Program-made: the position numbers and the translations under genes
From: Rufibacter immobilis
GTDB taxonomy: Bacteria; Bacteroidota; Bacteroidia; Cytophagales; Hymenobacteraceae
Direction of reading: 5' to 3'
NCBI RefSeq assembly: GCF_003721565.1
Contig: NZ_RJJE01000017.1
Location: 1,228,636-1,292,635 of the forward strand
Length of the DNA: 64,000 nt
Part shown: positions 1,696 to 63,458 of the stretch, piece after piece
How positions within the stretch are numbered: the first letter of the stretch is position 1
How the letters are laid out: each line of letters opens with the position of its first letter
The notes under the pieces: generated by a model
The model's input: only the letters and a program-made list of their open reading frames with translations
The model's database searches: none
What the model was told of the DNA's origin: nothing

Positions 1696-1735
1696 GCGTT
1701 TAGGGGCTGTTTTTGGAAAAACAGCCCCTAAACGC
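1696..1735. repeat. 40-bp palindromic intergenic repeat, copy 1 (symmetric)
   Basis: Perfect inverted repeat: GCGTTTAGGGGCTGTTTTT, a central GG, then its exact reverse complement. Copy 50158-50197 has the identical core. It lies about 200 bp beyond the stop of the HNH gene. Confidence 0.95.
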
Positions 1736-1941
1736 AAATACATGTTCTCTTCTTGGGCAGGCTCTCCAGACTCCGCTATCTGGGGGAGCCCATCAAGTGC
1801 AAGGCTTCCCTTTCCGGGGAGATGGTGATGGAAGTAAACTTATTCTTCACTTGCAGTCTTTTTGAATTTCTTGCTAGAGAAGCACCTCAAATGATTAATT
1901 CTTAGTAAGGCTAACACAGTATGCCCTAATTACAATAGAGA

Positions 1942-2451
1942 TCAGGCCCGCACCCGCTCAGCCAGGAAAGGCATCCAGGCGTGGTCGGTGTCTTGGATGC
2001 CGTCGCGCAGGAAAGAGACGAGGGAAGGCTTGAAGGGCTTGCGGCGCAGCTTCATCTCCACTTCCTCCGGGGTACGGTCGCCTTTGCGGGAATTACAGCG
2101 CGAGCAGGCTGTTATGAGGTTGTACCAGGTGCTCTGCCCACCGCGTGAGCGGGGCAACAGATGGTCTAGCGTCAGGTTTCTGGTGGAGCCGCAGTACTGG
2201 CACTGGTTGCGGTCACGGCGCATGATGTTCTGGCGGGTGAGCGATATTCCTTTATACGGCACCCGCACGTAGCGGTGCAGCCTGATCACCAACGGGCGCG
2301 GGTACGTTTGCCGCACGGTGCGCAGTACATTCAACTGATCTTCCGCAATCAGTTCTGCTTTCTGGAGGTACAACAAGACAAAGGCTTTGTGCAGACTGCA
2401 CGTAGCAATAGCGGAGTAATCTTGATTGAGTAAAAGTACTTTCTCATTCAT
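1942..2451 (-). CDS. HNH endonuclease family protein
   Basis: A 169-residue protein with a classic HNH nuclease domain in its second half. A zinc-binding CQYC pair (C84, C87) is followed by the DH pair (D96, H97), N111, and a second CSRCN cluster (C116, C119, N120). The N-terminal 70 residues (MNEKVLLLNQDYSA) match the extension usual in stand-alone HNH proteins widespread in Bacteroidota. The biological substrate of this family is not established. Nothing nearby (no methylase, intein or phage gene) suggests restriction or mobile-element function, so it is probably a housekeeping or DNA-processing nuclease. The ATG at 2451 is the natural start. Confidence 0.85.
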   Translation of the reverse strand: MNEKVLLLNQDYSAIATCSLHKAFVLLYLQKAELIAEDQLNVLRTVRQTYPRPLVIRLHRYVRVPYKGISLTRQNIMRRDRNQCQYCGSTRNLTLDHLLPRSRGGQSTWYNLITACSRCNSRKGDRTPEEVEMKLRRKPFKPSLVSFLRDGIQDTDHAWMPFLAERVRA

Positions 2452-2547
2452 ACGGGTTCCTGCTCGTTAGATCCTTGAAGTAAGATACGTAAAATAATCT
2501 TACCTTGGGTTTACTAACTGATTTTCAGGCCCTCGTGTTACAGAGAA

Positions 2548-3327
2548 TTAGTCAGGGAGAATGCGTTTGATAATGCGCAGCTTATGGGAGTACCGTTTGC
2601 GGTCGCGGTTATAGATGCCGTGGTGGTCCAGCTGGTCTATGCGCACCTCGCCGGAGGCATGGATGATCTTCTGGTCTTCCAGCACAATGCCCACATGGAT
2701 GATGCGGCCTTCCTCATTGTCAAAGAAAGCGACATCGCCGGGGCGGGTCTGGGCCACGAAATGCACCTCCTGCCCGTGCTCCACCTGCTGGTAGGCATCG
2801 CGGCGCAACTGGTAGCCGCACAAACCATACACCTGCTGCACAAAACCGGAGCAGTCAATCCCGAAGATGGATTTGCCGCCCCACACATACGGCGCCCGCA
2901 TGAACTGCAGCGCCATTTTCTGCAAAAAGTTCTCGCGGTACGGCAGCGCCGGATTGGTAGCCCTACCGTTGTACAGCATCCGTTCCTCCCCCACCCGTAT
3001 GCTCATGCCATCAAAAAAGGGCAAAAGGCTGCCTAGACCTATGGGCGTAACGCAATTGCTGCTGCTCACGGTTTGCACAATGTCCATGGACCGGGCGTGT
3101 TTTCCCTCTTTCCACTCCTGGAAATATGCATCAGAAACCGGAAAGTGCTGCTTGAAGTCAATCCAGCCCTCATAGCCATCTGCCACGTTCCTGATCTGGA
3201 ACCACTTCTCCTGGGTCAGCAGTACCTCATAGCACTCCCCAAAGACCAGCTGGGTGATCTGTTCGCTTTTGTCTGATGGTTCGCGGCGCACGGGCACCAG
3301 GCTCAATTTGCAAATCCCGAAGTTCAA
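2548..3327 (-). CDS. NlpC/P60 family cysteine peptidase with SH3-like N-terminus
   Basis: A 259-residue protein. Residues about 5-60 look like a bacterial SH3 domain (CKLSLVPVRREPSDKSEQ; EGWIDF). Residues about 135-255 form an NlpC/P60 domain with catalytic Cys159 in GIDCSGFV and His211 in IIHVGIV. Family members cut between D-glutamate and the diamino acid of peptidoglycan stem peptides. It resembles YkfC-type gamma-D-Glu-L-diamino acid endopeptidases, which fits the epimerase found 6 kb away, but no signal peptide is visible, which suggests cytoplasmic muropeptide processing. The start is TTG at 3327: an in-frame stop lies two codons upstream and no ATG precedes the SH3 region. Confidence 0.88.
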   Translation of the reverse strand: MNFGICKLSLVPVRREPSDKSEQITQLVFGECYEVLLTQEKWFQIRNVADGYEGWIDFKQHFPVSDAYFQEWKEGKHARSMDIVQTVSSSNCVTPIGLGSLLPFFDGMSIRVGEERMLYNGRATNPALPYRENFLQKMALQFMRAPYVWGGKSIFGIDCSGFVQQVYGLCGYQLRRDAYQQVEHGQEVHFVAQTRPGDVAFFDNEEGRIIHVGIVLEDQKIIHASGEVRIDQLDHHGIYNRDRKRYSHKLRIIKRILPD

Positions 3328-3462
3328 GGGTTATTAGGAATTAAGAACTGAGAATTATGAATTTAAATATCAGCACGCTGCTGGAAACAGGAATAGGGTT
3401 AGGAGATTCGAATTAGATGATGATCCACCCATTCTTAATCCTAATTCTCAATTCCTGATTAA

Positions 3463-4332: not shown

Positions 4333-4408
4333 AATTATAGAGCATTACAGAACCAAGATTAAGAATTTCTACGCATATTCAGGCCACAATTCCATCATCT
4401 TTCCTGCT

Positions 4409-5674: not shown

Positions 5675-5679
5675 CAAGT

Positions 5680-5727: not shown

Positions 5728-5744
5728 AGACGAATATAACCAGA

Positions 5745-6076: not shown

Positions 6077-6116
6077 GCGTTTAGGGGCTGTTTTTCTACA
6101 AATGGCCCCTAAACGC
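6077..6116. repeat. 40-bp palindromic repeat, copy 2 (symmetric)
   Basis: Arms GCGTTTAGGGGCTGTTTTT and AAATGGCCCCTAAACGC. It ends 29 bp beyond the stop of the MBL-fold gene on the minus strand. Confidence 0.9.
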
Positions 6117-7242: not shown

Positions 7243-7265
7243 TCCTTTTCTGATTATTGATTGAT

Positions 7266-7304
7266 CGTTTAGGGGCTGTTTTTTGAAAAAGAGGCTCTAA
7301 ACGC
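7266..7304. repeat. 40-bp palindromic repeat, copy 3 (mixed arms)
   Basis: The left arm is of the GGGGCT flavour (CGTTTAGGGGCTGTTTTTT). The right arm is of the GAGCC flavour (GAAAAAGAGGCTCTAAACGC), so the arms mismatch in the middle. It lies 5 bp beyond the stop at 7310. Confidence 0.88.
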
Positions 7305-8702: not shown

Positions 8703-8742
8703 GCGTTTAGGGGCTCTTTTTCAGAAAACGGCCCCTAAACGC
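8703..8742. repeat. 40-bp palindromic repeat, copy 4 (symmetric)
   Basis: Arms GCGTTTAGGGGCTCTTTTT and AAAACGGCCCCTAAACGC, with TT/AA flanks extending the pairing by 2 bp. It abuts the terminator of the epimerase gene. Confidence 0.92.
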
Positions 8743-9876: not shown

Positions 9877-10946
9877 ACGCTTGCCACCTCCTTGTTTACT
9901 ATTTCCTTTACCAGGTCAATGATGGGCTCAACGCCATCTTCCAGGGGCAAGACCACCGGCAGCCCCAGTTCTTCCTGGTACTGTCGCTGGTACTCGCGGG
10001 CCTGCTCCAGGGTTAAACCGGCGGTGTTCAGGGTTACGGCCAGCACTTTGGCGCCATATAATTCAATGAGTTGGATCTCTGTGGAGATGGGCGGAATCTT
10101 GAAACCGAGCGCTTCATTGTCGTCAAAGTAAATGCGGGCCGGGGCGTGTTGCAGCACCACGTACTTCACCTGCCCAGACACTAAGTATTCAGAGCCGCAG
10201 GGGCCGCTGGGGTTGCGCAGCGCGGCTTGGCCTTCCACAAAAAACACATCGGGTTGGTGGGTTTCATAGCTGCTCAGGATGGCGTGTTCCAGTTCCCCAG
10301 ACACGAAGTCATTGTAGGTGGAGTCCAGGATGAAGCCCGTGCCCCGCCCCTGCATCCAGCCGGTTTGGCCGGTGAAGATCATCTGGGCTTTGAGACCGGC
10401 GGCCTCGGCGGCCTGAGTGAGCAGGCGGGTGGTGGTGCGCTTGCCCATGCGCACATCGGTCCCCAGAACGGCTACGCGCGGGGCGGGTATGTTTTTGATT
10501 TTGCCGGTCCAGAAATGGAGTTCGCTTTTAGGTTTGGGCTTGCGCACGTCAATGAGCTGCACCCCGTGTTCCTGCGCCAGCACAGATAAATCTGGCATGT
10601 CTGAAAGGTACTCGTGGAGGCCGCTCACAATGTTCATGCCCTGGCGGATGGCCTCAGCAATGGTCTCTTTCATGCTGGCCGGTAGCTTGCCGCCCTTTGG
10701 GGCGATGCCCACCAGACAGTACTGGGCCGTTTCGGGGCTGTTTTTCAGGAAATCGGCTAAATCTGCGTACACGGGGATGCCGCGTTTCTTCCCGTCTACC
10801 ACCTCGCCCGCATCCTGCCCCGCCGACACCGCGTCTATCACGCCCACAATGCGGAAGCGTTCCGTGCCCCTTATTAGGCCGTGGGCAGTCTTGGCCGGGT
10901 ACTGGTTGAGTAAACCATTGGTGAGAATGATGGCGTTTCCATCCAT
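9873..10946 (-). CDS. DUF1611 family protein (DgcN-like N-acetyltransferase candidate)
   Basis: A 357-residue DUF1611 protein. The N-terminal 130 residues form a Rossmann-like domain (FRIVGVIDAVSAGQDAGE; YCLVGIAPKGGKLP). The rest carries a P-loop-like motif VLGTDVRMGKRTTTR, followed by GQTGWMQG, FFVEGQAALRNP and a C-terminal alpha/beta segment. DUF1611 proteins were long uncharacterised. Those encoded next to an enolase-superfamily racemase have been shown in marine proteobacteria and haloarchaea to acetylate D-glutamate (DgcN). The 4-bp overlap with the downstream epimerase supports a joint pathway. The assignment to DgcN is inference from family and context. Confidence 0.82.
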   Translation of the reverse strand: MDGNAIILTNGLLNQYPAKTAHGLIRGTERFRIVGVIDAVSAGQDAGEVVDGKKRGIPVYADLADFLKNSPETAQYCLVGIAPKGGKLPASMKETIAEAIRQGMNIVSGLHEYLSDMPDLSVLAQEHGVQLIDVRKPKPKSELHFWTGKIKNIPAPRVAVLGTDVRMGKRTTTRLLTQAAEAAGLKAQMIFTGQTGWMQGRGTGFILDSTYNDFVSGELEHAILSSYETHQPDVFFVEGQAALRNPSGPCGSEYLVSGQVKYVVLQHAPARIYFDDNEALGFKIPPISTEIQLIELYGAKVLAVTLNTAGLTLEQAREYQRQYQEELGLPVVLPLEDGVEPIIDLVKEIVNKEVASV

Positions 10947-10999: not shown

Positions 11000-11039
11000 G
11001 CGTTTAGCGGCCGTTTTGGGAAAAAGAGCCGCTAAACGC
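11000..11039. repeat. 40-bp palindromic repeat, copy 5 (GCGGC flavour)
   Basis: Arms GCGTTTAGCGGCCGTTTT and AAAAAGAGCCGCTAAACGC. It ends 7 bp beyond the stop of the M14 peptidase. Confidence 0.9.
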
Positions 11040-12543: not shown

Positions 12544-12856
12544 TATACCACAGGGTTTGAGTGGTGATGGCCGAGACAGCAACAGAAGCGTCATTGCCCC
12601 GCCTATATTTCTGCGGGTAATGTACCCATGAAATCCGGGTTGAGAAAAAACATTTTAAAAAAATTTCTTATTGCACGTATTTCAGCCGCCGGTATGGCAA
12701 CACCTACGCCCTTTTGGTAAAGAAATAGCAGCAAAGGCAGGTTCTGTTTCCTAAGAAGGAGACGAAGGATTTGTAGTATCCCGCAACCAGTATTAGACTA
12801 ATGTTGCGTTTAGAGCCTCTTTTTCCAAAAACGGCCGCTAAACGCAAATCAAGTTT
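12544..12856. other. Intergenic region between M14 peptidase and tsaD
   Basis: 313 bp without a gene. It holds an A/T-rich stretch (about 12640-12675), which may include the M14 gene promoter, and one repeat copy at 12806-12845. I see nothing else. Confidence 0.6.
12806..12845. repeat. 40-bp palindromic repeat, copy 6 (mixed arms)
   Basis: The left arm is of the GAGCC flavour (GCGTTTAGAGCCTCTTTTT). The right arm is of the GCGGC flavour (AAAAACGGCCGCTAAACGC). TT/AA flanks pair. It ends 11 bp beyond the tsaD stop. Confidence 0.9.
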
Positions 12857-18462: not shown

Positions 18463-18502
18463 GCGTTTAGGGGCTGTTTTTCTAAAAACAGCTCCTAAAC
18501 GC
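18463..18502. repeat. 40-bp palindromic repeat, copy 7 (symmetric)
   Basis: Arms GCGTTTAGGGGCTGTTTTT and AAAAACAGCTCCTAAACGC, with GT/AC flanks pairing. It starts 3 bp after the tamB stop codon. Confidence 0.93.
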
Positions 18503-20767: not shown

Positions 20768-20884
20768 CAATGGGTTCCCTGTCCAATAAGTACAATATTC
20801 CTCTCCTCTAATGAGTTCAGTAAGCGGTAGCCCAGGAATGGCTTCCTTTGGGCTATCTTGGGCAAAAGTCCTTGGACACGTTCC

Positions 20885-20924
20885 ATTTAGCGGCTCTTTT
20901 TCTTAAATCAGGCGAAAAACGCGC
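20885..20924. repeat. Asymmetric subtype repeat, copy 8
   Basis: Read on the minus strand it matches the asymmetric subtype: CGTTTTTCGCCTGATTTAAG followed by AAAAAGAGCCGCTAAAT. The pairing is imperfect. It lies about 120 bp after the serine hydrolase stop. Confidence 0.75.
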
Positions 20925-25073: not shown

Positions 25074-25113
25074 GCGTTTAGGGCCCTATTTTCAAAAAAG
25101 AGCCCCTAAACGC
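25074..25113. repeat. 40-bp palindromic repeat, copy 9 (symmetric)
   Basis: Arms GCGTTTAGGGCCCTATTTT and AAAAAAGAGCCCCTAAACGC, with AT/AT flanks extending the pairing by 2 bp. It begins 8 bp after the stop at 25065. Confidence 0.92.
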
Positions 25114-26696: not shown

Positions 26697-26746
26697 TAAC
26701 TTGTGTTACACAAACGGCAAAAGGCTCCCGCTGTAGAGTCTTTTGA

Positions 26747-26784
26747 CGTTTAGAGCCTCTTTTTGAAAAAAAAGCCCCTAAACG
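26747..26784. repeat. 40-bp palindromic repeat, copy 10 (mixed arms)
   Basis: The left arm is of the GAGCC flavour (CGTTTAGAGCCTCTTTTT). The right arm is of the GGGGC flavour (AAAAAAAAGCCCCTAAACG). It lies 50 bp after scoB. Confidence 0.88.
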
Positions 26785-26809
26785 CCGTATACAGTTCATG
26801 GCAGCATGG

Positions 26810-26943: not shown

Positions 26944-28497
26944 ATGAGTGAAAATACAGAACACAAATTAATATTACGTCCCCTCACCCCCGCCGACTAC
27001 AAGGAAGTAAAACAGATCATGGAGTTGGTATACACCAACATTGGCGGCTCCTGGACTCAGAAAGAATTCAGTTCCCTGCTTAAACGCTTCCCAGACGGTC
27101 AGCTGTGCATTGAAGACAAAGGCCGGGTGGTAGCTGCCGCCCTAAGCTTAATTGTAGACTACTCTGAGTACGGAGACAAACACACCTATGAGCAGATTGT
27201 GGGCGGCGGAAAATTTGATACCCATGACGATGACGGCGATACCCTCTACGGGGTAGATGTGTTTGTGCACCCAGAGTACCGCAACCTTCGTTTGGGCCGC
27301 CGTTTATATGACGCGCGTAAAGAACTTTGCGAAAACCTGAACCTGCGGGGCATCATTCTGGGGGGCCGAATCCCGGGCTACAAAGAGTATGCTGACCGTA
27401 TGACGCCGGGCAAGTACATTGAGCAGGTGCGCAACAAGGAAATCTATGATCCCATTCTCACGTTCCAGCTCAGCAATGGCTTCCACGTCCGGAAAATCAT
27501 CAGAGGCTATATGCCTCAGGACAAGGAATCCAAGGCCTATGCTTCTCTGCTGGAGTGGATCAACGTGTACCATGAAGAAAAGGAAACGCTGGTGGGCGGG
27601 ACCAAAAAAGTGGTGCGTATTGGGGTAATTCAGTGGCAGATGCGTCAGATGAACTCTCTGGAAGACTTTGAACAGCAGATTGAGTTCTTCGTGGACACCG
27701 TGAGCTCCTACAAAGCCGACATGGTCATGTTCCCGGAGTTTTTCAATGCCCCGCTCATGGCTTTAACCGATGAGAAATCCCCCTCGGCGGCCATCAGAAA
27801 ACTGGCCGATTACACAGACGGAATCAGGGAGAAGCTCATCCATTTGGCGCTTTCGTACAACATCAACATCATTGCCGGCAGCATGCCGGAGTATATTGAC
27901 AACAAGCTGCACAACGTGAGCTACCTCTGTAGAAGAGACGGCACCTATGACAAGCAGTACAAGCTGCACGTAACCCCAGACGAAGCCCATTACTGGGGAA
28001 TGCGCGGCGGCAACAAACTGAATGTCTTTGACACAGACTTCGGGAAGATTGGCATCCTGATCTGCTATGACGTGGAATTCCCCGAGCTGGCCCGTATGCT
28101 CTCTGACCAGGACATGAAGATCCTCTTTGTGCCGTACCAGACCGATACCAAAAACGCCTACCTCCGCGTGCGGCACTGCGCTCAGGCGCGGGCCATTGAG
28201 AATGAGTGCTACGTAGCCATCACGGGCAGCGTGGGCAACTTGCCCCGGGTAGAGAACATGGACATCCAGTATTCGCAGTCGGCGGTATTCTCGCCTTCAG
28301 ACGTGGCGTTCCCGCATGATGCCATCATTGCCGAGGCCACGCCCAATACCGAGATGACCCTCATCGCCGATTTGGACCTGGACCTGCTCAAAGACCTGAA
28401 CACCACCGGCAGCGTACGTAACCTGAGAGACCGGCGCAAGGACCTCTACAACCTGAGCTGGCTGCACCAGAAAGAAGACGATTTAACCGAGATTTAA
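26944..28497 (+). CDS. Fusion of GNAT acetyltransferase and carbon-nitrogen hydrolase
   Basis: From ATG 26944 the protein is 517 residues. Residues about 8-210 are a GNAT N-acetyltransferase domain (VDVFVHPEYRNLRLGRRLYDARKEL holds the acetyl-CoA site). Residues about 225-500 are a nitrilase-superfamily amidohydrolase with its Glu-Lys-Cys triad: MFPEFFN, YDKQYKLHVTPDE and ILICYDVEFPE. The fusion is known and conserved in Bacteroidota and some other bacteria; its substrate has not been established to my knowledge. It may acetylate and hydrolyse an amine or amide metabolite. The frame extends 7 codons further upstream, but the ATG before SENTEHK is preferred. A perfect palindrome starts 2 bp after the stop. 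Confidence 0.93.
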   Translation: MSENTEHKLILRPLTPADYKEVKQIMELVYTNIGGSWTQKEFSSLLKRFPDGQLCIEDKGRVVAAALSLIVDYSEYGDKHTYEQIVGGGKFDTHDDDGDTLYGVDVFVHPEYRNLRLGRRLYDARKELCENLNLRGIILGGRIPGYKEYADRMTPGKYIEQVRNKEIYDPILTFQLSNGFHVRKIIRGYMPQDKESKAYASLLEWINVYHEEKETLVGGTKKVVRIGVIQWQMRQMNSLEDFEQQIEFFVDTVSSYKADMVMFPEFFNAPLMALTDEKSPSAAIRKLADYTDGIREKLIHLALSYNINIIAGSMPEYIDNKLHNVSYLCRRDGTYDKQYKLHVTPDEAHYWGMRGGNKLNVFDTDFGKIGILICYDVEFPELARMLSDQDMKILFVPYQTDTKNAYLRVRHCAQARAIENECYVAITGSVGNLPRVENMDIQYSQSAVFSPSDVAFPHDAIIAEATPNTEMTLIADLDLDLLKDLNTTGSVRNLRDRRKDLYNLSWLHQKEDDLTEI

Positions 28498-28498
28498 G

Positions 28499-28564
28499 AA
28501 AAAGAGCCCCTAAACAGGAAAGGCCGGTATGTATACCGGCCTTTCCTGTTTAGGGGCTCTTTTT
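28499..28564. terminator. 66-bp palindrome: terminator fused to repeat half-sites
   Basis: Two 32-bp arms are exact reverse complements around a central GT. From outside in: AAAAAGAGCCCCTAAAC, then AGGAAAGGCCGGTAT. The stem ends in T5 on the plus strand, so it is a good terminator for the gene ending at 28497. The outer parts are repeat half-sites facing outward, the reverse of their usual order. Confidence 0.88.
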
Positions 28565-28584
28565 CCAGAATTGGCCCCAAACTA
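28549..28584. repeat. Palindromic repeat, copy 11 (degenerate right arm)
   Basis: GTTTAGGGGCTCTTTTT then CCAGAATTGGCCCCAAAC: a normal repeat whose right arm is partly decayed. It shares its left arm with the 66-bp palindrome. Confidence 0.75.
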
Positions 28585-28599
28585 ACCTATCGTTTCGCT

Positions 28600-32148: not shown

Positions 32149-32200
32149 CGGTTTGCGTTTAGGGGTTATTTTTTCAAAAACGGCCCCTAAACGCAAACCG
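32149..32200. repeat. Palindromic repeat, copy 12, with 6-bp paired flanks
   Basis: The core at 32155-32194 has arms GCGTTTAGGGGTTATTTTTT and AAAAACGGCCCCTAAACGC. The flanks CGGTTT and AAACCG extend the stem to 52 bp overall. It is 140 bp beyond the methyltransferase stop. Confidence 0.92.
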
Positions 32201-34202: not shown

Positions 34203-35201
34203 ATGGTATCTACCCCTAAAATTTACACAATTATTGTCAACTACAAGAGCTGGCAAGACACTGTGGAATGTATTGAAAGTCTTCTAAAAATTAAGTACGC
34301 CAATAATCAAATCATTGTCATAGACAACGCCTCTCCCAACAATGCGTTTGAGGCATTAATCAACTGGGCATCTGATTACTGGACGCACGAACCAGACGCA
34401 TTCGCTATTATTCCTGCAGAATACCAGGAAAGTAGCGTACCTCCAACTCATACTTTCCCAAATGCCAAACTGCTTTTATATAGATCTTCCATTAATGGGG
34501 GGTTTGCCGCGGGAAATAACATAGGCATCCGATTTGCGCTTTACCGAAACGACTTTGACTTCCTGTGGTTATTGAACAATGATACTGTGGCAGACAAAGA
34601 CAGTCTTCCTGAGTTGGTGAAGGCCGCTATTTTAGCCATTAGTACGGGAAGAAAGATTGGAATGTGGGGTTCAAAACTCCTTTATTACCAGGAGCCCTCT
34701 AAAGTGCAAGCCATTGGCGGCAAGCTTAATTTAGCCACGCTTACCACCTCCCACATTGCAGAAGGTTGGGAAGACAATTCTACCGCGCTTCCGCAGGCAA
34801 TAGACCCTGATTATATAGTTGGGGCCTCCATGTTCATCAGTAAAGACTTTATTGACGAAGTGGGATTGATGGATGAAACCTATTTCCTGTATTTTGAGGA
34901 ATTAGACTGGGCTCAACGAGGCAAACGCCGCGGCTTTGGCTTAGGCTATGTCCCGCTGAGCAGAGTATTCCATAAAGAAGGTAAGACAATAGGTTCCAGT
35001 TCCTCCGGAGCCGGGAAAAGTGATTTGGCAGATTTCCATGGCCTTAGAAGCAAAATAATCTTTTTCAGGAAGTTTTATCCTGAGAGAACTGTCCAACTTT
35101 ATGCCTCTCTGCTTACTTCTGCCTGTTTGCGTTTAGCCAGATTACAATTTAAGAGGGGGGCAGCAGTTTTTCAATTGATGTGGCGCACAAAAAACATATG
35201 A
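34203..35201 (+). CDS. Glycosyltransferase family 2 (rhamnosyltransferase-like)
   Basis: A 332-residue protein from ATG 34203 (a TTG four codons earlier is possible). It has IYTIIVNYKSWQDTVECIESLL, VIDNASPNN, the NGGFAAGNNIGIRFA motif and the metal site LWLLNNDTVADKDSL, a set typical of WcaA/RfbF-like rhamnosyltransferases. The GASMFISKDFIDEVGLMDE and FLYFEELDWAQRGK motifs form the acceptor-side catalytic region. The stop overlaps the following polymerase gene by 4 bp (ATGA). Confidence 0.92.
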   Translation: MVSTPKIYTIIVNYKSWQDTVECIESLLKIKYANNQIIVIDNASPNNAFEALINWASDYWTHEPDAFAIIPAEYQESSVPPTHTFPNAKLLLYRSSINGGFAAGNNIGIRFALYRNDFDFLWLLNNDTVADKDSLPELVKAAILAISTGRKIGMWGSKLLYYQEPSKVQAIGGKLNLATLTTSHIAEGWEDNSTALPQAIDPDYIVGASMFISKDFIDEVGLMDETYFLYFEELDWAQRGKRRGFGLGYVPLSRVFHKEGKTIGSSSSGAGKSDLADFHGLRSKIIFFRKFYPERTVQLYASLLTSACLRLARLQFKRGAAVFQLMWRTKNI

Positions 35202-36502
35202 CCTTTTCCTCTAGAATATCCATCGCTTATGTGTTGGTTATCGCACTGCTGGTAACAATACTGTGTAGTGGTTTTATTACCAATTTCCTTTCCTTCTCCC
35301 ACTTGAATCTAGCCACTCTGCTAATTGATTGGCTTATTGCCCTTGTTCTGCTACACTTCTTTACCGGGCTTTTCTTTGCCTATTACAGAGGTCAGAAAAT
35401 AAGGCGGTCACAGCTTATTGCACTGGGAATTTGGTTACTTCTGTTATTTACGACCATACTTAAGCTACTTTTTATAGATGCTAACCCGATGCTTGAAAAG
35501 CTATTGGGGTTAAGAAATAATTTGATTTATAGTTGCCTGTTTCTTTACCTGCCCTTCTTTTTGAGAAGGGAAGATAGAATTCGAACCTGCATTACTGTGA
35601 TTCTCTTCGTTGGAACATTGCTTTGCCTTTTTGCCTTATTTCAATTCACTTTTTCCTCCAGTCTGCCAATGCCATACCTGGTGTTAAGAGGGGAAAGCAC
35701 TTTTGGATTTTACGGAACTGAAATTGTAAGACCTACAGCCCTCCTAGGCAATACAATTATCTTCTCCAGTTTCACCGTTATTCTGGCTACCATTACTTTA
35801 TCTAGGTACATGTTTACCAGAAACAAAGTATATCTGGTCCTTTTATTACTGATTCTTCTAACAAACATCCTCACCTTCACCAGAGCTGCATTGGTCGGTT
35901 TTTTTCTCTCTGGAGCCACTGTTTTGATTCTCCAGTACGGGCGTTTCACATTAGTTTATTTAATCAAAGCGTTTTCAATGCTCCTGCTCCTTCTTGTGCT
36001 CACTGTTAGCCTTGGCAGTTATTTTAAAGACACGTTTCTGGTACAAAGAATTACTGGTCAAGATGCCAGCTCTATTTCATCTACAGAAGGTCACTACACT
36101 CAAATCAGTAGTTCTTTAGACTATTTTCAAAGAAATTTATGGACCGGAGTGGGAACTGGATCGCAGGGACCCAGTAGCAGCCCTGAGCGGGTGGTTATCA
36201 CCGACGGCTATTGGTTCCAGCTGTTGATGGAGAACGGGCTTCCGTTGAGCATTCTATATCTATCTTCTTTTATTTTAAGTTTCTTTTACACCCTCCGGCT
36301 CTTTTTCATAACTCATGATTTGTCCCTCAGGCAGCTTTGCCTGTGCTTCCTTGGCTGTAGTGCATACTTTTACGCGGCCAGTTTCTTGAATTCAGCTATT
36401 GCCGGAAAAGTAAATTTCATCCTCTACTGGATGATCTTTGGTTTTGTCCTTGCCCAACGTGCCATTCTAAAAGAACGTGAGAAATGCCTTCCATTGCGAT
36501 AG
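35198..36502 (+). CDS. O-antigen polymerase/ligase family protein (Wzy-like, first copy)
   Basis: A 434-residue polytopic membrane protein from ATG 35198, with about 11-12 hydrophobic segments. The Wzy_C/O-antigen ligase region contains LTFTRAALVGFFLSG and a periplasmic loop after about residue 285 with GVGTGSQGPSSSPERVV. In such clusters one protein of this family polymerises repeat units (Wzy) and another may ligate the product. It overlaps the upstream GT2 by 4 bp and the next GT by 19 bp. A GTG at 35180 would be an alternative start. Confidence 0.82.
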   Translation: MTFSSRISIAYVLVIALLVTILCSGFITNFLSFSHLNLATLLIDWLIALVLLHFFTGLFFAYYRGQKIRRSQLIALGIWLLLLFTTILKLLFIDANPMLEKLLGLRNNLIYSCLFLYLPFFLRREDRIRTCITVILFVGTLLCLFALFQFTFSSSLPMPYLVLRGESTFGFYGTEIVRPTALLGNTIIFSSFTVILATITLSRYMFTRNKVYLVLLLLILLTNILTFTRAALVGFFLSGATVLILQYGRFTLVYLIKAFSMLLLLLVLTVSLGSYFKDTFLVQRITGQDASSISSTEGHYTQISSSLDYFQRNLWTGVGTGSQGPSSSPERVVITDGYWFQLLMENGLPLSILYLSSFILSFFYTLRLFFITHDLSLRQLCLCFLGCSAYFYAASFLNSAIAGKVNFILYWMIFGFVLAQRAILKEREKCLPLR

Positions 36503-40046: not shown

Positions 40047-40102
40047 GTAGGCTTGCGTTTAGCGGCTATTTTTTCAAAAATAGCCGCTAAACGCAAGCCT
40101 AC
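40047..40102. repeat. Palindromic repeat, copy 13, with 8-bp paired flanks
   Basis: The core at 40055-40094 has arms GCGTTTAGCGGCTATTTTTT and AAAAATAGCCGCTAAACGC. The flanks GTAGGCTT and AAGCCTAC extend it to 56 bp, with a mismatch only at the centre. It lies 20 bp after the ligase-like gene. Confidence 0.95.
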
Positions 40103-40168: not shown

Positions 40169-40220
40169 TCATGTGCGTTTAGCGGCTGTTTTTCTGAAAA
40201 CAGCCGCTAAACGCACATGA
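40169..40220. repeat. Palindromic repeat, copy 14, with 6-bp paired flanks
   Basis: The core at 40175-40214 has arms GCGTTTAGCGGCTGTTTTT and AAAACAGCCGCTAAACGC. The flanks TCATGT and ACATGA extend the stem. It is only 66 bp from copy 13 and of the same GCGGC flavour. Confidence 0.95.
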
Positions 40221-43163: not shown

Positions 43164-44806
43164 AAATACGGGTTCTAGTAACGTTCATCTGGTGTTTAAG
43201 CAGCCTCAGCGCATGGGCGCAGGATTTTCTAGCCTATAATGAACGGAACCAACCTGTAACCGTGCTTTGCGTGGGGGAACGTATTACTTTCAGAGACAAT
43301 ACCCCAAGAAGCAACGACCCTAACTTCTCAGAATTCTACGATTTTGACGCCGATGATAACCAAGAGAAGTTTGAAGACCCGGTACATGTGTTCACCATAC
43401 CCGGCGAATACACGGTAACGCAGCTCGCCTACGGATATGAGCAGCGACAACGCACTTTCACGGTGAAAGCCAATGCCCCGGCTACGTCCCCGGTACTACA
43501 GAAGCTTACCCTGCTACCAACCGGAATTGAGCTGCAACTGAATACCTCTGGGGTAAATGACCTGGTTCTGGAGAGGGCTTCCTCTTCTTCCGGTACGTTC
43601 ACAGTCATCCAAACACTCACGGCAGTACCTCAGGGTGAAAGCCCGCACCTCCTTTCCATAGATCCTAATGCCGGTTGTTACCGGGTACGGGTTACCAATA
43701 CGTGCTCAGGACGGCAAGATATTGTCTCTTCCACGGTGTGTAGCCAAGCACTATTTGTAACTGCTGGTAACCGCGTGAACCAACTTTCCTGGGCCGCTAA
43801 TGCCAGTTCAGGTTCTGTTAGCTCGTACCAACTGCTTCGGGGTGGTCAGCCCTACAAAACCTTCCTCAATACTCAAACCTCCTTCACAGACACAGAAGTG
43901 GCCTGCGGCCGATTGTACACCTACCAGTTGGTGGCACTGCTGCCAAACAACGTGCAAAGTGCCTCGGTACCGGTACAGGTAGAAACACAGGGCTCCACTC
44001 CCCCGGCTGCTCCTTTTTTGGTCGCCAGCTTTGATTTACAGAACAGGGTAATGCTGCAGACGGTGGTACCCGACCAGGAAACCTTCAAAGAACAGACCAT
44101 CTACCGGAGCCAGGGAAACGCTGGTTTTGCCCAGATTTCAGAAAAACAGTCCCTAAACGCCCTAGACTCCACTTCCCCTGCGCTTTCGGCACCGCTCTGC
44201 TACCAAGCAACGTATACAGATTCCTGCTCCCAAACCTCGGGGCGCAGTAACAGTGCCTGTCCGGCCATTCTAACCGCTACCTTTCAGGCGGAGGGGAGTG
44301 TGCAGCTCACCTGGAATGCTTATGAAGGTTTCCCTGCCGGGGTGGGAACGCAGACCCTGGAGTTGCTGGACGAGCAGGGACAGGTATATTGGAGCACTCC
44401 CGTGACCGGGCAATCGTACCTGGATGAAAAGCCGCAGACTACGTACCAGCGCTTAACGTACCGGTTATTGTCAAAAGCCCAGGATGGTTCTTACCAGAGT
44501 TACTCCAACACCGCCACGGCAGACCAAGCCTTTCAATTCCACTTCCCCACGGCCTTCAGCCCCAATGCCGATGGCCTGAACGATGTCTTCAGACCGGTGG
44601 GTTCTCCCTTCGCCTCCTCCTTCACCTTGCAGGTACTCAACCGCTGGGGGCAGATCATCTTTGAAAGCAAAGACCCCAAAAATGGCTGGGACGGCACCTA
44701 CCAAGGCAAACCCGCCCCGCCCGAAACCTACCTCTTCCGCATGGAAGCCAAAGATGTGAACGGCAAACGCATCACCCAGAAAGGCACCGTTACCTTGGTG
44801 AAATAG
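43160..44806 (+). CDS. Secreted protein with gliding-motility (T9SS type B) C-terminal domain
   Basis: A 548-residue secreted protein from GTG 43160 (overlap GTGA with hutH). The signal peptide is KIRVLVTFIWCLSSLSAWAQ. A PKD-like domain (about 30-105, VCVGERITF; HVFTIPGEYTVTQ) is followed by fibronectin III-like modules. The type B sorting domain ends the chain: FPTAFSPNADGLNDVFRP, LQVLNRWGQIIFES and GWDGTYQGKPAPPETY. It is probably a cell-surface adhesin-like cargo of the type IX system. Residues about 321-334 are encoded by a partial repeat element (44120-44160). Confidence 0.9.
   Translation: MKIRVLVTFIWCLSSLSAWAQDFLAYNERNQPVTVLCVGERITFRDNTPRSNDPNFSEFYDFDADDNQEKFEDPVHVFTIPGEYTVTQLAYGYEQRQRTFTVKANAPATSPVLQKLTLLPTGIELQLNTSGVNDLVLERASSSSGTFTVIQTLTAVPQGESPHLLSIDPNAGCYRVRVTNTCSGRQDIVSSTVCSQALFVTAGNRVNQLSWAANASSGSVSSYQLLRGGQPYKTFLNTQTSFTDTEVACGRLYTYQLVALLPNNVQSASVPVQVETQGSTPPAAPFLVASFDLQNRVMLQTVVPDQETFKEQTIYRSQGNAGFAQISEKQSLNALDSTSPALSAPLCYQATYTDSCSQTSGRSNSACPAILTATFQAEGSVQLTWNAYEGFPAGVGTQTLELLDEQGQVYWSTPVTGQSYLDEKPQTTYQRLTYRLLSKAQDGSYQSYSNTATADQAFQFHFPTAFSPNADGLNDVFRPVGSPFASSFTLQVLNRWGQIIFESKDPKNGWDGTYQGKPAPPETYLFRMEAKDVNGKRITQKGTVTLVK
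44120..44160 (+). repeat. Asymmetric repeat copy embedded in coding sequence
   Basis: GCTGGTTTTGCCCAGATTTC, then AGAAAAACAGTCCCTAAACGC minus one mismatch to the standard half-site. It is translated in frame as part of the T9SS cargo protein (around AQISEKQSLNA) and is the only copy found inside a gene. Confidence 0.8.
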
Positions 44807-44845
44807 CGCTTAGGGGCTACTTTTAGAAAAACAGGCTCTAAACGC
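44806..44845. repeat. Palindromic repeat, copy 15 (mixed arms)
   Basis: Arms GCGCTTAGGGGCTACTTTT and GAAAAACAGGCTCTAAACGC. The last base of the TAG stop of the upstream gene is the first base of the repeat. Confidence 0.88.
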
Positions 44846-48470: not shown

Positions 48471-48473
48471 AGC

Positions 48474-48510
48474 CGTTTAGGGGCTGTTTTTGGAAAAACG
48501 GCCCCTAAAC
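48474..48510. repeat. Palindromic repeat, copy 16 (symmetric)
   Basis: Arms CGTTTAGGGGCTGTTTTT and AAAAACGGCCCCTAAAC around GG. It begins 4 bp after the lipoprotein gene stop. The right end lacks the CG. Confidence 0.9.
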
Positions 48511-48555
48511 ATAATCCCGCAGATACTTCACCCCAAACCGAGATGCGTTTTTTTA

Positions 48556-48609: not shown

Positions 48610-49593
48610 ATGCGAACTATACAATTCAGAGAGGCATTGCGTGAGGCAATGAGCGAAGAAATGCGCCGCGACCCAAAGGTGTTCCTGATGGGCGAGGAAG
48701 TTGCCCAATACAATGGTGCCTACAAAGTAAGCCAAGGCATGCTGGACGAGTTTGGTCCTGAGCGCGTGATTGATACCCCCATTGCTGAGCTGGGTTTTGC
48801 CGGTATAGGCGTGGGAGCGGCCATGAACGGTCTTCGCCCTATCATTGAGTTCATGACCTTCAACTTCTCATTGGTAGCCATTGACCAGGTGATCAACTCC
48901 GCGGCTAAGATGATGTCCATGTCTGGCGGGCAGTACTCCTGCCCTATGGTGTTCAGAGGACCAACCGGTAACGCCGGCATGCTGTCTTCCCAGCACTCTC
49001 AGAACTTTGAAAACTGGTACGCCAACACCCCAGGCTTGAAAGTAGTAGTACCCTCCAACCCATATGACGCCAAAGGTCTTATGAAGACCGCCATCCGCGA
49101 CAACGACCCAGTGATCTTCATGGAGTCTGAGTTGATGTACGGCGATAAAGGCGAAGTTCCGGAGGAAGAATACCTGATTCCTATCGGCGTAGCCGATACC
49201 AAGCGCAAAGGAAATGACGTAACCATCGTTTCCTTCGGGAAAATGGTGAAACTAGCGCTTCAGGCCGCTGAGGAATTAGCCAAAGACGGCGTGGACGCTG
49301 AGGTGATCGACCTTCGTTCCGTACGTCCTATTGACTACAACGCTATTATTGAGTCTGTGAAGCGCACTAACCGTCTGGTGGTGGTGGAAGAGGCGTGGCC
49401 ATTGGCTTCCATCTCTTCTGAGATTGCTTTCCACGTGCAGCACCAGGCCTTTGACTTCTTAGACGCTCCGGTGAAACGCGTCACCTGCCGCGACGTTCCG
49501 CTTCCGTACGCCCCTACCCTCATTGAGGCGTCTCTGCCAAACGTGCAGCGCATCATGCAGGCGGTAAAAGAAGTAACTTACGCAAAAGCCTAA
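48610..49593 (+). CDS. pdhB: Pyruvate dehydrogenase E1 component, beta subunit
   Basis: A 327-residue beta subunit of the alpha2beta2-type E1 of pyruvate dehydrogenase, which decarboxylates pyruvate with thiamine diphosphate. Family motifs are [55 protein letters not shown] and [14 protein letters not shown]. The C-terminal transketolase domain has [12 protein letters not shown] and [16 protein letters not shown]-like sequence. The alpha subunit and E2 are not in this window. A strong terminator follows the gene. Confidence 0.96.
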
Positions 49594-49615
49594 GCGCCCA
49601 GCGCAATAAAACCGG

Positions 49616-49653
49616 GAGCCGACCATTCTATTATTGGTCGGCTCTTGTTTTTA
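49616..49653 (+). terminator. Intrinsic terminator of pdhB
   Basis: The stem GAGCCGACCA with TGGTCGGCTC, loop about 9 nt, is followed by TTGTTTTT. It lies 23 bp after the pdhB stop. Confidence 0.9.
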
Positions 49654-49655
49654 AG

Positions 49656-49695
49656 GTGTTTTGGGCCTGATTTCAGAAAAAGAGCCTCTAAACGG
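49656..49695. repeat. Asymmetric subtype repeat, copy 17
   Basis: GTGTTTTGGGCCTGATTTC, then AGAAAAAGAGCCTCTAAACG. The left arm is the GTTTTnGGC type and pairs only partly with the right arm. Confidence 0.82.
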
Positions 49696-49697
49696 GA

Positions 49698-50120
49698 ATG
49701 ATTCAGAAAATGCTGAAGATAAAATTTTTGGCGGCCGTACTGCTGGCGGGTGCCCTGAGCGCTTGTACAGAGACATCCAAGCTGGAGGAGGTGGTGATGC
49801 CGGTAGCCGTTGAGGAAACGGCGGGCTTTCCAAGGCAGCCCATCAAAACCGATACCACTTATACCTTGCGGGTGCTCTATAGGCCAGAGAACGGCTGTGG
49901 GCGTTTTGCCCGCCTAGACTCTGTGCTGGAAAACCCCAATAAGAGGCTCATGACGGTTTTTGCCGCCTACCCCGTTGAAGGCCAGGAAGCCATCTGTTCA
50001 GACCAAGCCAGGTTGATCTCGGTCTCGTTCAAGTTTAGGGCACAGGAACCAGGTAAATATTATTTCCATTTCTGGCAGTCTAGTGGCACTGTTCTGATAG
50101 ACTCTTTGGAAGCGCGGTAA
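49698..50120 (+). CDS. Putative lipoprotein of unknown function
   Basis: A 140-residue protein with a lipoprotein signal: FLAAVLLAGALSAC, lipidated Cys near residue 23. The mature part has two Cys (in ENGCGRFARLD and QEAICSDQARL) that could form a disulfide, and beta-strand-rich sequence (DTTYTLRVLYRP; SVSFKFRAQEPGKYYFHFW). I do not recognise a family. ATG 49698 is used; ATG 49710 (LKIKF) would also keep the signal. A 66-bp palindrome lies just beyond it, between it and a convergent methyltransferase gene. Confidence 0.65.
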   Translation: MIQKMLKIKFLAAVLLAGALSACTETSKLEEVVMPVAVEETAGFPRQPIKTDTTYTLRVLYRPENGCGRFARLDSVLENPNKRLMTVFAAYPVEGQEAICSDQARLISVSFKFRAQEPGKYYFHFWQSSGTVLIDSLEAR

Positions 50121-50144
50121 TACCTGTTTCTCCGTCCTCTTATA

Positions 50145-50210
50145 AAACGAATCTCCTGCGTTTAGGGGCTGTTTTTGGAAAAACAGCCCCTAAACGCAGG
50201 AGATTCGTTT
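50145..50210. repeat. Palindromic repeat, copy 18, with 13-bp paired flanks
   Basis: The core at 50158-50197 equals copy 1 exactly. The flanks AAACGAATCTCCT and AGGAGATTCGTTT are perfect complements, giving two 32-bp arms around a central GG. It sits between two convergent genes, 25 bp and 12 bp from their stops. Confidence 0.96.
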
Positions 50211-50221
50211 GCTTTGATACC

Positions 50222-58055: not shown

Positions 58056-58097
58056 TCTGTTTTCAGGCTTTTTTGAGAAAAATGGCCGCTAAACGCA
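58056..58097. repeat. Asymmetric subtype repeat, copy 19
   Basis: TCTGTTTTCAGGCTTTTTTG, then AGAAAAATGGCCGCTAAACG. It begins about 9 bp after the hybrid kinase stop. Confidence 0.78.
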
Positions 58098-58636: not shown

Positions 58637-58647
58637 GTTTGCTTTCT

Positions 58648-59273: not shown

Positions 59274-59313
59274 CTGTTTCAGGCATTATTCCAGAAAAAG
59301 AGCCGCTAAACGC
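59274..59313. repeat. Asymmetric subtype repeat, copy 20
   Basis: CTGTTTCAGGCATTATTCC, then AGAAAAAGAGCCGCTAAACG. It is about 80 bp after the deaminase stop. Confidence 0.78.
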
Positions 59314-59380
59314 AAACGGCTACTTGACAGCCTAAAGCCGCCTTCCTCCGTAGTATCTTACCATACCCACCCCTGATACT

Positions 59381-60139: not shown

Positions 60140-60252
60140 AGGTGAATTAAGAATTAAGAATTGAGAATGGGAAATTAAGAATAGTGGGTGATAATAAAGC
60201 TCTTATCCTATTTTGATAAGTAACCCAGGCACAACCTTGTGTTTTGACGCTT

Positions 60253-60398
60253 TCCGTCCCCCTTGGAAGGGGGTAGGGGGATGACACAGGCCGTAGAAGA
60301 TGCAACTGCTAATATTAAGTGCTAGAGAAAAATGCCTTTCGGGAATGTACAACTCTGCACGAGTAATCATCCCCCTACCCCCTTCCAAGGGGGACGGA
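60253..60398. repeat. 32-bp perfect inverted repeat with 82-bp spacer
   Basis: The left arm 60253-60284 and the right arm 60367-60398 are exact reverse complements. Each arm is itself nearly palindromic around CCCCCTTGGAAGGGGG, followed by TAGGGGGATGA on the left. The 82-bp interior shows no reading frame. A similar GC-rich motif is common between genes in Bacteroidota as far as I know. Confidence 0.93.
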
Positions 60399-60438
60399 AC
60401 GCGTACACATAATTTCTAAATTCAGGCTCAAAGAAGTC

Positions 60439-60480
60439 CCTGTTTTTGGCTTGATTTAGCGAAAACAGCCCCTAAACAGG
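60439..60480. repeat. Asymmetric subtype repeat, copy 21
   Basis: CCTGTTTTTGGCTTGATTTA, then GCGAAAACAGCCCCTAAACAGG. Its right end is shared with the ffh terminator stem. Confidence 0.8.
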
Positions 60481-60515
60481 AATGCCCGAACCAACTAAGA
60501 TTCGGGCATTCCTGT
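60476..60515 (-). terminator. Intrinsic terminator of ffh
   Basis: A 15-bp perfect stem (ACAGGAATGCCCGAA with TTCGGGCATTCCTGT), loop 10 nt, 25 bp past the ffh stop. On the minus strand the stem is followed by TTAGGGGCTGTTTT from the abutting repeat instead of a pure T-tract. Confidence 0.8.
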
Positions 60516-60539
60516 GAAAACAAGTAAAAGTTTAAAGTT

Positions 60540-61877: not shown

Positions 61878-61923
61878 GTGCAGTATATGACTGAGTTATG
61901 TAAATTTCAATGGATGACAAAGA

Positions 61924-61931
61924 CAAAAATA
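61924..61931 (-). promoter_or_regulatory. Putative ffh -7 box
   Basis: On the minus strand TATTTTTG fits TAnnTTTG, with a leader of about 40 nt to the ffh ATG. No -33 TTTG was found at the usual spacing. Confidence 0.4.
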
Positions 61932-62010
61932 CGCAGAATTTGCGGAAGTTCACCATCTTTTAACCAGAGGTACGTATATTCGGACTTAACTATGAAAAGG
62001 TGAGCGCCGC

Positions 62011-62050
62011 GCGTTTAGCGGCTCTTTTTCCGGAAACAAGCTAAAACTGG
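62011..62050. repeat. Asymmetric subtype repeat, copy 22, in a divergent promoter region
   Basis: GCGTTTAGCGGCTCTTTTT followed by CCGGAAACAAGCTAAAACTGG; on the minus strand this is the asymmetric subtype. It is the only copy that lies upstream of both flanking genes instead of behind a stop codon. Confidence 0.8.
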
Positions 62051-62094
62051 TTTCCGTTCGCTCACTTACACCCAATACCAGAAGCAGAACACCT

Positions 62095-63414
62095 TTGAAA
62101 TCAACCGGCCCACATACTCCTCAACCTGCATTGCTCATCACGTATTACTGGCCCCCATCGGGCGGAGCTGGGGTGCAGCGCTGCCTTAAGTTTGTGAAGC
62201 ACCTCCCAGAGTTTGGCATTGCCCCTACCGTAGTCACCGTTGATGACCGGCAGGCCTCTTACCCGGTCCTGGACCCTTCGCTCAACGCTGAGGTGCCCGC
62301 CGGGGTAAACGTGATCCGGACGGGCACCCGCGAGCCTTTTGAGTTCTACAAGAAAATCACGGGCAAGAAAGACATCCCGTTCGGGGGGTTTGCCAATACC
62401 GGCCAGGAAACCTGGAAGCAGAAGCTGTTCAAGTTCCTGCGGGGCAATCTGTTCATCCCAGACCCGCGCGTGGGCTGGAACCGGTACGCCTACGCCGCCG
62501 CCAAGAAAGCGATTCAGGCGGGGGGCATCAAAGCGGTGGTCACTTCCAGTCCGCCCCATTCCACCCAACTCGTAGGCCTGAAGCTCAAAAAGCAGCTGGG
62601 CATCAGGTGGATTGCCGACATGCGCGACCCCTGGACCGACATCTATTATTACCAGGACCTGAACCACACCGCACTGGCCCAGAAGCTGGACGCCAAATAC
62701 GAGCGCGATGTGCTGGAACACGCCGATGCCGTGGTAGTGGTCTCTGAGGACATGAAACGCCTGTTCCTGAACAAATCCACCACGCTAGATCCGCACAAAA
62801 TCCACGTGATTCCCAACGGTTATGACGAGGACGATTTCGTGCATCCGTCTGCGCCTTCTACTGAGGAGTTCATCATTACCTACACCGGTACCCTCACCGA
62901 GGCCTATAACGTGGAAGGTTTCTTTCAGGCGCTCTGCGAAACCGTGACCCGCAACCCTTTGCTGCGGTACCGCCTGCGGTTTGTGGGAAAGGTGTCGCAG
63001 GAGATTAAGCGGCAGATTGAAGAAGCCGGCTTGCCTCTCATCACGGAGTATATTGACTACGTGCCCCACGAGGAATCCATCAAATACCTCATGGCCAGCA
63101 CCGTATTGCTGATGGCCATTCCGGACGTGCCCAACAACTTCGGGATTCTCACCGGCAAGCTGTTTGAGTACCTGGCCGCCAATAAACCCATCATCTGCAT
63201 TGGCCCCATCCACGGCGACGCCGATAAGATTCTGGATGAGTGCGGCGCGGGGCGGGTTTTCCATTACTCGGGCTATGCCCTTATTCTGGATTACCTCATG
63301 CAACTGAGCAAAACCTGGAAGATCAATACCAATCTGGACCTGCCCAGCATCAACTACACGCAGTATTCGCGCCGCTCCCTCACGGAACAGCTGGCAAAAC
63401 TGCTGGTAAAATAA
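62095..63414 (+). CDS. Glycosyltransferase (GT-B fold, family 4-like)
   Basis: A 439-residue GT-B glycosyltransferase starting at TTG 62095. The N-terminal nucleotide-fold domain has ALLITYYWPPSGGAGVQRCLKF. The linker has RWIADMRDPWTDIYYY. The C-terminal domain has HVIPNGYDEDDF, FIITYTGTLTEAYN and GKLFEYLAANKPIICIGP, typical of glycosyltransferases of the FlaR/WbuB-like group in Bacteroidota. It is probably part of an exopolysaccharide or cell-surface glycan set that continues beyond the right edge, since a polysaccharide deacetylase gene follows. Confidence 0.88.
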   Translation: MKSTGPHTPQPALLITYYWPPSGGAGVQRCLKFVKHLPEFGIAPTVVTVDDRQASYPVLDPSLNAEVPAGVNVIRTGTREPFEFYKKITGKKDIPFGGFANTGQETWKQKLFKFLRGNLFIPDPRVGWNRYAYAAAKKAIQAGGIKAVVTSSPPHSTQLVGLKLKKQLGIRWIADMRDPWTDIYYYQDLNHTALAQKLDAKYERDVLEHADAVVVVSEDMKRLFLNKSTTLDPHKIHVIPNGYDEDDFVHPSAPSTEEFIITYTGTLTEAYNVEGFFQALCETVTRNPLLRYRLRFVGKVSQEIKRQIEEAGLPLITEYIDYVPHEESIKYLMASTVLLMAIPDVPNNFGILTGKLFEYLAANKPIICIGPIHGDADKILDECGAGRVFHYSGYALILDYLMQLSKTWKINTNLDLPSINYTQYSRRSLTEQLAKLLVK

Positions 63415-63418
63415 CGTT

Positions 63419-63458
63419 GCGTTTAGGGGCCGTTTTTCCAAAAACAGCCCCTAAACGC
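63419..63458. repeat. Palindromic repeat, copy 23 (symmetric)
   Basis: Arms GCGTTTAGGGGCCGTTTTT and AAAAACAGCCCCTAAACGC around CC. It begins 5 bp after the glycosyltransferase stop. Confidence 0.94.

Follow-up and report, generated by a model that had tools for sequence, protein, structure and literature searches.

A dispersed 40-bp palindrome, kept in place but respelled between Rufibacter species, as a possible DNA-level recognition tag

What holds a 40-bp palindrome in place, and nearly alike, at some two thousand sites in a bacterial genome? The question is raised by a 64,000-nucleotide stretch of Rufibacter immobilis (assembly GCF_003721565.1, contig NZ_RJJE01000017.1, positions 1,228,636 to 1,292,635, forward strand), hereafter the window, in which a reading made from the letters alone (the sequence-only reading) had reported 23 intergenic copies of a hairpin, some of them asymmetric. 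From the analysis given below the element looks like a site read on DNA by a protein, and not like a mobile repeat or a termination signal acting as RNA. We tentatively favor a two-fold recognition tag acting at the DNA level, of the DNA-uptake-signal type, an intracellular chromosome-organizing protein being almost as likely a reader as an uptake-type system. Element copies were scored by scanning with a 40-mer matrix at a cut-off of 16 bits or more; the matrix had been trained on part of the congener data, which took in some of the loci used in the ortholog test. The gene calls are those of a home-made caller. Genome totals are extrapolated from an enlarged sample that covers 764 kb, or 16% of the genome, and contains the window, and a smaller sample of 364 kb served for geometry and for a strict terminator scan. 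Where genomes must be told apart, G000 is this genome and G004, G005, G006, G008, G013, G014 and G015 are congeners.

With up to three mismatches allowed, the window contains 39 instances of the half-site GCGTTTAGGGGCTGTTTTT, where 100 shuffles predict 0.03. Alignment of the copies gave a unit of 40 bp composed of two inverted 19-bp halves and a 2-bp center (19+2+19), and the length was exactly 40 bp in 78 of the 79 copies of the 364-kb sample that have two conserved halves. The matrix scan returned 26 copies in the window, 24 outside genes and two inside genes (10727 and 44121); thus the repeats reported earlier are real, the count has been revised, and the asymmetric copies proved to pair a conserved half (A) with a degenerate one (B, roughly CTGTTTTRGGCCTGATTTC) at unchanged spacing. 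The T and A tracts sit inside the dyad and not behind it, as the sequence-only reading had said in arguing that this is no textbook terminator. Its claim of a bias to gene ends also held, as 23 of the 24 extragenic copies share a gap with, or overlap, at least one gene end and the remaining copy (62011) lies in a divergent gap. The copies and the two features bound up with them are as follows, AA denoting two A halves; a strand is given only where one was assigned.

1696 to 1735: element, both halves A, perfect palindrome (half-site search, matrix scan)
6077 to 6116: element, AA (half-site search, matrix scan)
7265 to 7304: element, AA (half-site search, matrix scan)
8703 to 8742: element, AA (half-site search, matrix scan)
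10727 to 10766: weak element-like sequence within a DUF1611 gene, which may be a coincidence held by the protein sequence (matrix, Pfam)
11000 to 11039: element, AA; same gap occupied in 7 of 7 congeners (matrix, synteny)
12806 to 12845: element, AA (matrix scan)
18463 to 18502: element, AA; stop codon 2 bp before (matrix scan)
20883 to 20922: element, one A and one B half (matrix scan)
25074 to 25113: element, AA; same gap occupied in 7 of 7 congeners (matrix, synteny)
26746 to 26785: element, AA (matrix scan)
28478 to 28517: element, B then A, overlapping a gene end; on one side of an ordinary terminator hairpin that has the 28546 copy on its other side, the halves being inside-out
28546 to 28585: element, A then B; opposite side of the hairpin from the 28478 copy (matrix scan)
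32155 to 32194: element, AA (matrix scan)
40055 to 40094: element, AA, with flanking inverted repeat (matrix, flank scan)
40175 to 40214: element, AA, with flanking inverted repeat (matrix, flank scan)
44121 to 44160: element inside a coding region (CHU_C protein, type IX secretion signal); the congeners examined have element-like sequence there as well
44806 to 44845: element, AA, sharing the final base of a gene (matrix scan)
48473 to 48512: element, AA; stop codon 2 bp before; same gap occupied in 7 of 7 congeners
49616 to 49652, plus strand: ordinary intrinsic terminator just upstream of the 49656 element (by eye)
49656 to 49695: element, B then A, directly behind the terminator, with the next called start following 2 bp later; same gap occupied in 7 of 7 congeners
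50145 to 50210: composite, an inverted repeat of about 13 bp around the 50158 element; five congeners are alike with a different outer stem
50158 to 50197: element, AA, perfect palindrome (half-site search, matrix scan)
58057 to 58096: element, B then A (matrix scan)
59274 to 59313: element, B then A (matrix scan)
60440 to 60479: element, B then A (matrix scan)
62011 to 62050: element, A then B, in the divergent gap upstream of a glycosyltransferase gene; same gap occupied in 7 of 7 congeners
63419 to 63458: element, AA; stop codon 4 bp before (matrix scan)

The enlarged sample held 339 copies, which extrapolates to about 2,116 per genome or roughly one per 2.3 kb, and a strict palindrome pattern matched 422 places genome-wide where the reversed control matched none; the abundance claimed at the outset is therefore well above chance. 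The two halves are A or B independently of each other, the AA, AB and BB classes being 153, 156 and 30 against 157, 147 and 34 expected, with A making up 68% of all halves and the halves being bimodal for dialect. A partner lies at exactly 2 bp for 427 of 442 strong A halves, single halves being almost absent. Partners also scored at a spacing of 1 bp (12 of 220) and of 3 bp (61 of 220), which we put down to a register shift in the T run. Within the same 764 kb, convergent gaps held 72 copies (40.2 expected by length), tandem gaps 203 (191.3 expected) and divergent gaps 30 (73.6 expected), with 16 more inside called genes and 18 unassigned or partly overlapping a gene. A copy was present in 74% of convergent, 57% of tandem and 32% of divergent gaps, and the median distance to a stop codon was 29 bp against 67 bp for random places in the same gaps. 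Asymmetric copies behind genes showed no orientation bias (20 A-first, 16 B-first).

A search for the half-site through the genome and its relatives gave a two-sided answer: it is far above chance here, and the exact spelling is nearly private to this genome while a degenerate form is genus-wide. The pattern CGTTTAGSGGCYNTTTT occurred at 835 + 823 places in this genome against 0 to 81 in 15 congeners (none in three), and a single match was found among 23 other genomes. With the 40-mer matrix the degenerate form was found 3.3 to 7.3 times per 10 kb in samples of 14 congeners (six of them pooled), the shuffles being near zero, and at 16 bits or more nothing was found in 240 kb from seven genomes of other genera of the family or in 100 kb from the order. 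A degenerate pattern search of 204 genomes of the family gave 7 to 485 places in each of the 16 genomes of the genus and none in the 188 genomes from five other genera (reversed control 0). Among 395 genomes drawn over the phylum, a set that included no other congener, only this genome matched. A named genome collection gave at least 80 loci and, among the matches listed, all were from Rufibacter or Sabulibacter ruber. The half-site consensus differs by species, being gcGTTTaggGgCtgTTTTt here, ccGTTTtgggcCtGTTTTc in G005 and tCGTTTTTgGccTgTTTtc in G013, and it is looser in G004, G008, G014 and G015; the consensus has been rewritten in place, species by species. The 40-mer pattern also matched a 39-kb viral contig (IMGVR_UViG_2839759663_000002, L247:1275-1310), which is perhaps a prophage region of a Rufibacter.

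Given these dialects, the positions of the copies were compared between the window and the syntenic regions of seven congeners, where the aligned segments had about 63 to 91% DNA identity. The 41 gaps made up 287 cells, 216 of them scorable. Where a gap was occupied in R. immobilis the congener had a copy in 106 of 116 cells, whereas for gaps empty here the figure was 7 of 100 (Fisher odds ratio 141, p 3e-40, the p value being nominal because the cells share ancestry). Counted per gap with at least three scorable congeners, all 17 occupied gaps were mostly occupied in the congeners and all 15 empty gaps were occupied in few. Gap lengths were often near-equal (window 49593-49697 measures 101 to 105 bp in all eight genomes), others differing. 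Taken together, the shared occupied gaps and their lengths argue that the A dialect was written onto existing sites and not inserted. Sequence beyond the stop codon was readable at seven of nine outgroup loci of the gene that starts near 48649, and by eye each of the seven had an ordinary terminator-like hairpin and no element.

The element is also kept within coding sequence. Across 274 kb of coding sequence six copies scored 28 bits or more, where synonymous shuffles gave 0.0, and by Pfam the host genes encode an aminotransferase, a chorismate-binding enzyme, a CHU_C protein and a DUF1611 protein; for one more host there was no family. In each of the 11 congeners tested, the aminotransferase and chorismate-binding genes carry the copy at unchanged codons, and when the best of 13 offsets is taken the scores are 18 to 51 bits, offset 0 being the best in 21 of 22; the weakest are those of G015 (18.1 and 19.5 bits) and G008 (22.8 and 26.5 bits), and the local dialect is visible by eye in G005, G006 and G013. 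The host peptide follows the DNA spelling of the copy. A halves make up 13 of the 32 halves of the 16 coding copies, below the overall share, as a constraint from the protein would predict. The chorismate-binding gene has no copy in four outgroup sequences (-27 to -40 bits), which are of near-equal length, one lacking a single residue at the site and another lacking two about 15 residues upstream. Hence this copy looks like the product of substitution rather than insertion, a view that rests on one coding case aligned to other genera. The window copy at 10727, which scores 21-29 bits in seven congeners, may be a coincidence kept by protein conservation, 0.8 to 1.2 such places per 274 kb being expected at 18-22 bits. 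A weak element-like place in the congeners' gene at about window position 41102 is absent from this genome and was set aside.

If the element is a self-tag, each copy would be a site read as DNA by a putative protein contacting the two 19-bp half-sites across the 2-bp center. Such a reader, which would probably be dimeric, fits because the halves are independent, the spacing is strict and the strands are symmetric. The roughly 2,100 copies would be kept since a certain tag density is needed, and not for an effect on each host gene, and they would persist where sequence may vary, that is, behind genes, around or inside terminator hairpins and in variable protein linkers. Preferential uptake or recombination of tagged DNA would hold every copy near the current consensus, and species would thereby drift to their own dialects in place. 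The information per site is 26-53 bits, a range inflated by matrix-based hit selection, against about 11 bits needed to address 2,100 sites, and we read this excess as favoring a drive over ordinary regulator sites. Together with the dialects and a placement that appears to be driven by tolerance, it gives the element its likeness to DNA uptake sequences. Two thousand or so dispersed sites whose places are kept for the lifetime of a genus while their spelling changes would mean a genome coevolving with a putative reader. To our knowledge no earlier uptake tag of this kind has been described in the Bacteroidota, so that if the uptake role is true this would be the first there and of a new geometry; if the role is not uptake, it would be a new genome-wide architectural site. 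The fullest form of the proposal, in which an obligate 40-bp dyad is read by an apparently pilus-less Bacteroidota uptake or recombination system, is rewritten as the reader changes and alters host enzymes on the way, we regard as rather unlikely.

Several observations weigh against a tag, and some of these would instead be expected of an RNA hairpin serving as an intrinsic terminator or 3'-end stabilizer. No T2SSE (PilB/PilT) ATPase (PF00437), the sole uptake family searched, scored above the cut-off in this genome, the one sub-threshold hit being at 19.8 bits. Single copies are nearly absent, while DNA uptake sequences also occur singly; copy turnover is low; the spacing of copies is not significantly even (variance/mean 0.67, P 0.07; 95 of 500 permutations); and convergent enrichment with divergent depletion is also expected from a gene-end function. 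In AA copies of this genome a copy's own arms outpair swapped arms by 0.6 of 19 pairs (z 6.8), and the same preference for own arms is seen in five of six congeners, with z 2.4 to 3.0 in four of them and 0.8 in G015. Among 110 tandem copies of the congeners, a T run follows within 20 nt on the sense side in 25 and on the antisense side in 6 (p 0.0003). We read these as an RNA-type constraint on part of the element family, namely a nested subset, and the congener T runs and arm-coupling scores led us to weight the RNA hairpin up, though only to improbable, and the tag down to the tentative standing given above. The bias toward stop codons also fits a hairpin, and own-arm folds are 1.1 to 2.4 kcal/mol lower than swapped ones in six of seven sets. 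In 33 of 212 occupied convergent or tandem gaps of this genome an inverted repeat flanks the copy and a separate terminator is absent, and in the gap 50120-50221 the element lies at the apex of an enclosing stem in six species, the stem sequence differing and several stems ending in T runs. Convergent gaps that hold a copy less often have a canonical terminator (24 of 60 against 15 of 20 without; 8 of 18 against 13 of 17 in congeners, p 0.09; 7 of 33 against 7 of 11 in the stricter scan of 364 kb). The difference shrinks when nested hairpins are counted as terminators (38 of 60 here, 11 of 18 in congeners), and in tandem gaps a copy makes no difference to terminator frequency (33 of 152 with, 25 of 116 without). 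Conserved RNA pairing would give more G.U than C.A mismatches in the sense strand of the arms, yet these number 211 and 206 here and 171 and 155 in congeners, and folding energies are equal in sense and antisense. The controls for this test differ in value: strict terminators held no such mismatches and were uninformative, relaxed terminators gave a weak 25 to 14 (p 0.11), and 13 tRNAs gave 19 to 0, a result that is partly circular because ARAGORN accepts G.U pairs by design. The gain in arm pairing is just 0.2 to 0.7 of 19 pairs and is absent in G013; pooled over congeners the coupling has z 9.5, a value that mixes in dialect differences, and the non-AA copies of G000 have fewer own pairs than swapped (z -6.4) because of how these copies were selected. 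The sense-side excess of T runs is absent in this genome (31 against 28 of 203 tandem copies), and copies sit inside enzyme genes. We therefore regard an RNA hairpin as improbable for the main function on the G.U/C.A parity, the small arm coupling and the enzyme-gene copies, and accept it for the subset. There we read the nested copies as intrinsic terminators enclosing a copy, to which template switching may also contribute.

Template switching leads to a further explanation, that the element is a functionless dispersed sequence kept alike by mutation alone, through template switching in quasi-palindromes and short-tract conversion. In its favor are the bimodal halves and the unique flanking inverted repeats (extension score at least 6), found beside 19 of 78 AA copies and 0 of 79 others (control 0.2%), extended flanks accompanying high palindromicity in the congeners as well. 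However, template switching perfects one palindrome and cannot spread one new consensus to unlinked sites, the halves became A independently, and the copies persist through the depth of the genus, so that we give this explanation little credence. A mobile origin, whether as a miniature inverted-repeat transposable element (MITE) or as a repeat of the repetitive extragenic palindromic (REP) type, we consider very improbable. REP elements are positioned at gene 3' ends, and the sequence-only reading had likened the element to them and to bacterial interspersed mosaic elements (BIMEs) moved by REP-associated tyrosine transposases (RAYTs). The element does share with REPs, BIMEs and REP doublets (REPINs) the features given in published accounts of these, a short palindrome, high copy number and a mostly extragenic placement (PMC3733652; PMC2817692). 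The Y1 transposase sought beside a copy exists: the genome has one such gene (PF01797), with copies 333 bp before and 517 bp after the matched domain, and of six Y1 loci three are flanked on both sides by copies no more than about 520 bp away and one on one side, for which we weighted mobility slightly up. On the other hand, two of the six have no copy within 1.4 kb, the flanking copies lie hundreds of bases outside the gene, and a different palindrome, GGGATT...AATCCC, lies closer upstream of it. Congener G006 has no PF01797 match and yet 33 copies in 86 kb, no GTAG-type head (described for REPs in a RAYT paper, PMC2817692) is visible in the element consensus, and the chorismate-binding gene shows no insertion of element length. 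Unlike a MITE or a REP, the element keeps its positions across the genus and is rewritten there. The comparison between species thus does not support the analogy: mobile origin was rejected on the orthologous positions, and the RAYT link is not supported although copies adjoin Y1 genes at several loci. More serious is the proposal that a dimeric protein specific to the genus, of nucleoid or boundary type, binds the element inside the cell and acts in chromosome organization, supercoil relief or transcription boundaries at unit ends, which we hold to be nearly as likely as the uptake-type tag. The strict dyad and fixed spacing, the graded occupancy of convergent, tandem and divergent gaps, the orthologous positions and the mismatches without strand bias would all be accounted for. 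A boundary role, however, is hard to square with copies midway in enzyme genes, the information is far above the need of a binder with 2,100 sites, and a regulator of fixed specificity could not easily follow a consensus that changes in place at most sites.

Rfam gave no match in the window at gathering score, and among the matches listed in a search of open-licence papers for Rufibacter or Hymenobacter palindromes, intergenic repeats, and Bacteroidetes repeats or terminators no description of the 40-bp element appeared. The closest likeness is to the DNA uptake sequences (DUS) of the Neisseriaceae and the uptake signal sequences (USS) of the Pasteurellaceae, motifs of about 10-12 bases that also occur singly, in contrast to the obligate 40-bp dyad seen here. 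Shared with them are the copy number, dialects, copies in genes and inverted pairs at terminators, all of which are described for DUS, with thousands of copies, in one account (PMC3630211). The differences are the phylum and the pilus ATPase, which was not found above cut-off here. Neisseria and Haemophilus are described as taking up DNA via type IV pili. Within the Bacteroidota, Riemerella columbina is reported to be competent and to prefer its own DNA in transformation, and possible components of type IV pilus type are given for F. johnsoniae (PMC7965970); a screen in R. anatipestifer reports ComEC, DprA, a SusC/RagA outer-membrane protein and a helix-hairpin-helix protein (PMC8459023). HIP1 of cyanobacteria is described as a very abundant, clade-linked palindrome of uncertain function; the element shares the abundance and the clade linkage, whereas HIP1 is an 8-mer (the GCGATCGC octamer) linked to methyltransferases and the element is 40 bp, degenerate and mostly extragenic with a consensus that differs. 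The Rickettsia palindromic elements also occur in frame inside genes and are longer, inserted elements; the placement inside genes is shared, and no insertion was seen at the coding copy examined here. Bidirectional intrinsic terminators are near-palindromic and lie at convergent gene ends, and some element copies nest inside such terminators; unlike them, the element has T/A tracts inside the dyad and no G.U excess in its arms.

Some minor observations remain. At two loci (L069 and L070) of G014, whose copies are otherwise loose, three out of four highly palindromic copies sit within enclosing stems that reach extension scores of 11 to 15. At L034:9450-9600, GGGATT...AATCCC palindromes with CTGTCA lie beside the sole Y1 transposase gene and are possibly that gene's own REP-like repeats. 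The window gap 35201-35668 looks like a gene missed by the caller because its length is nearly constant in all species. Another dispersed repeat of about 150 bp with CCCCCTTGGAAGGGGG arms lies at window 60247-60404 and has further matches in all eight congeners searched, and a short AT-rich repeat of GAATTAAGAATT type lies at 60144-60182, with a second occurrence at 3338.

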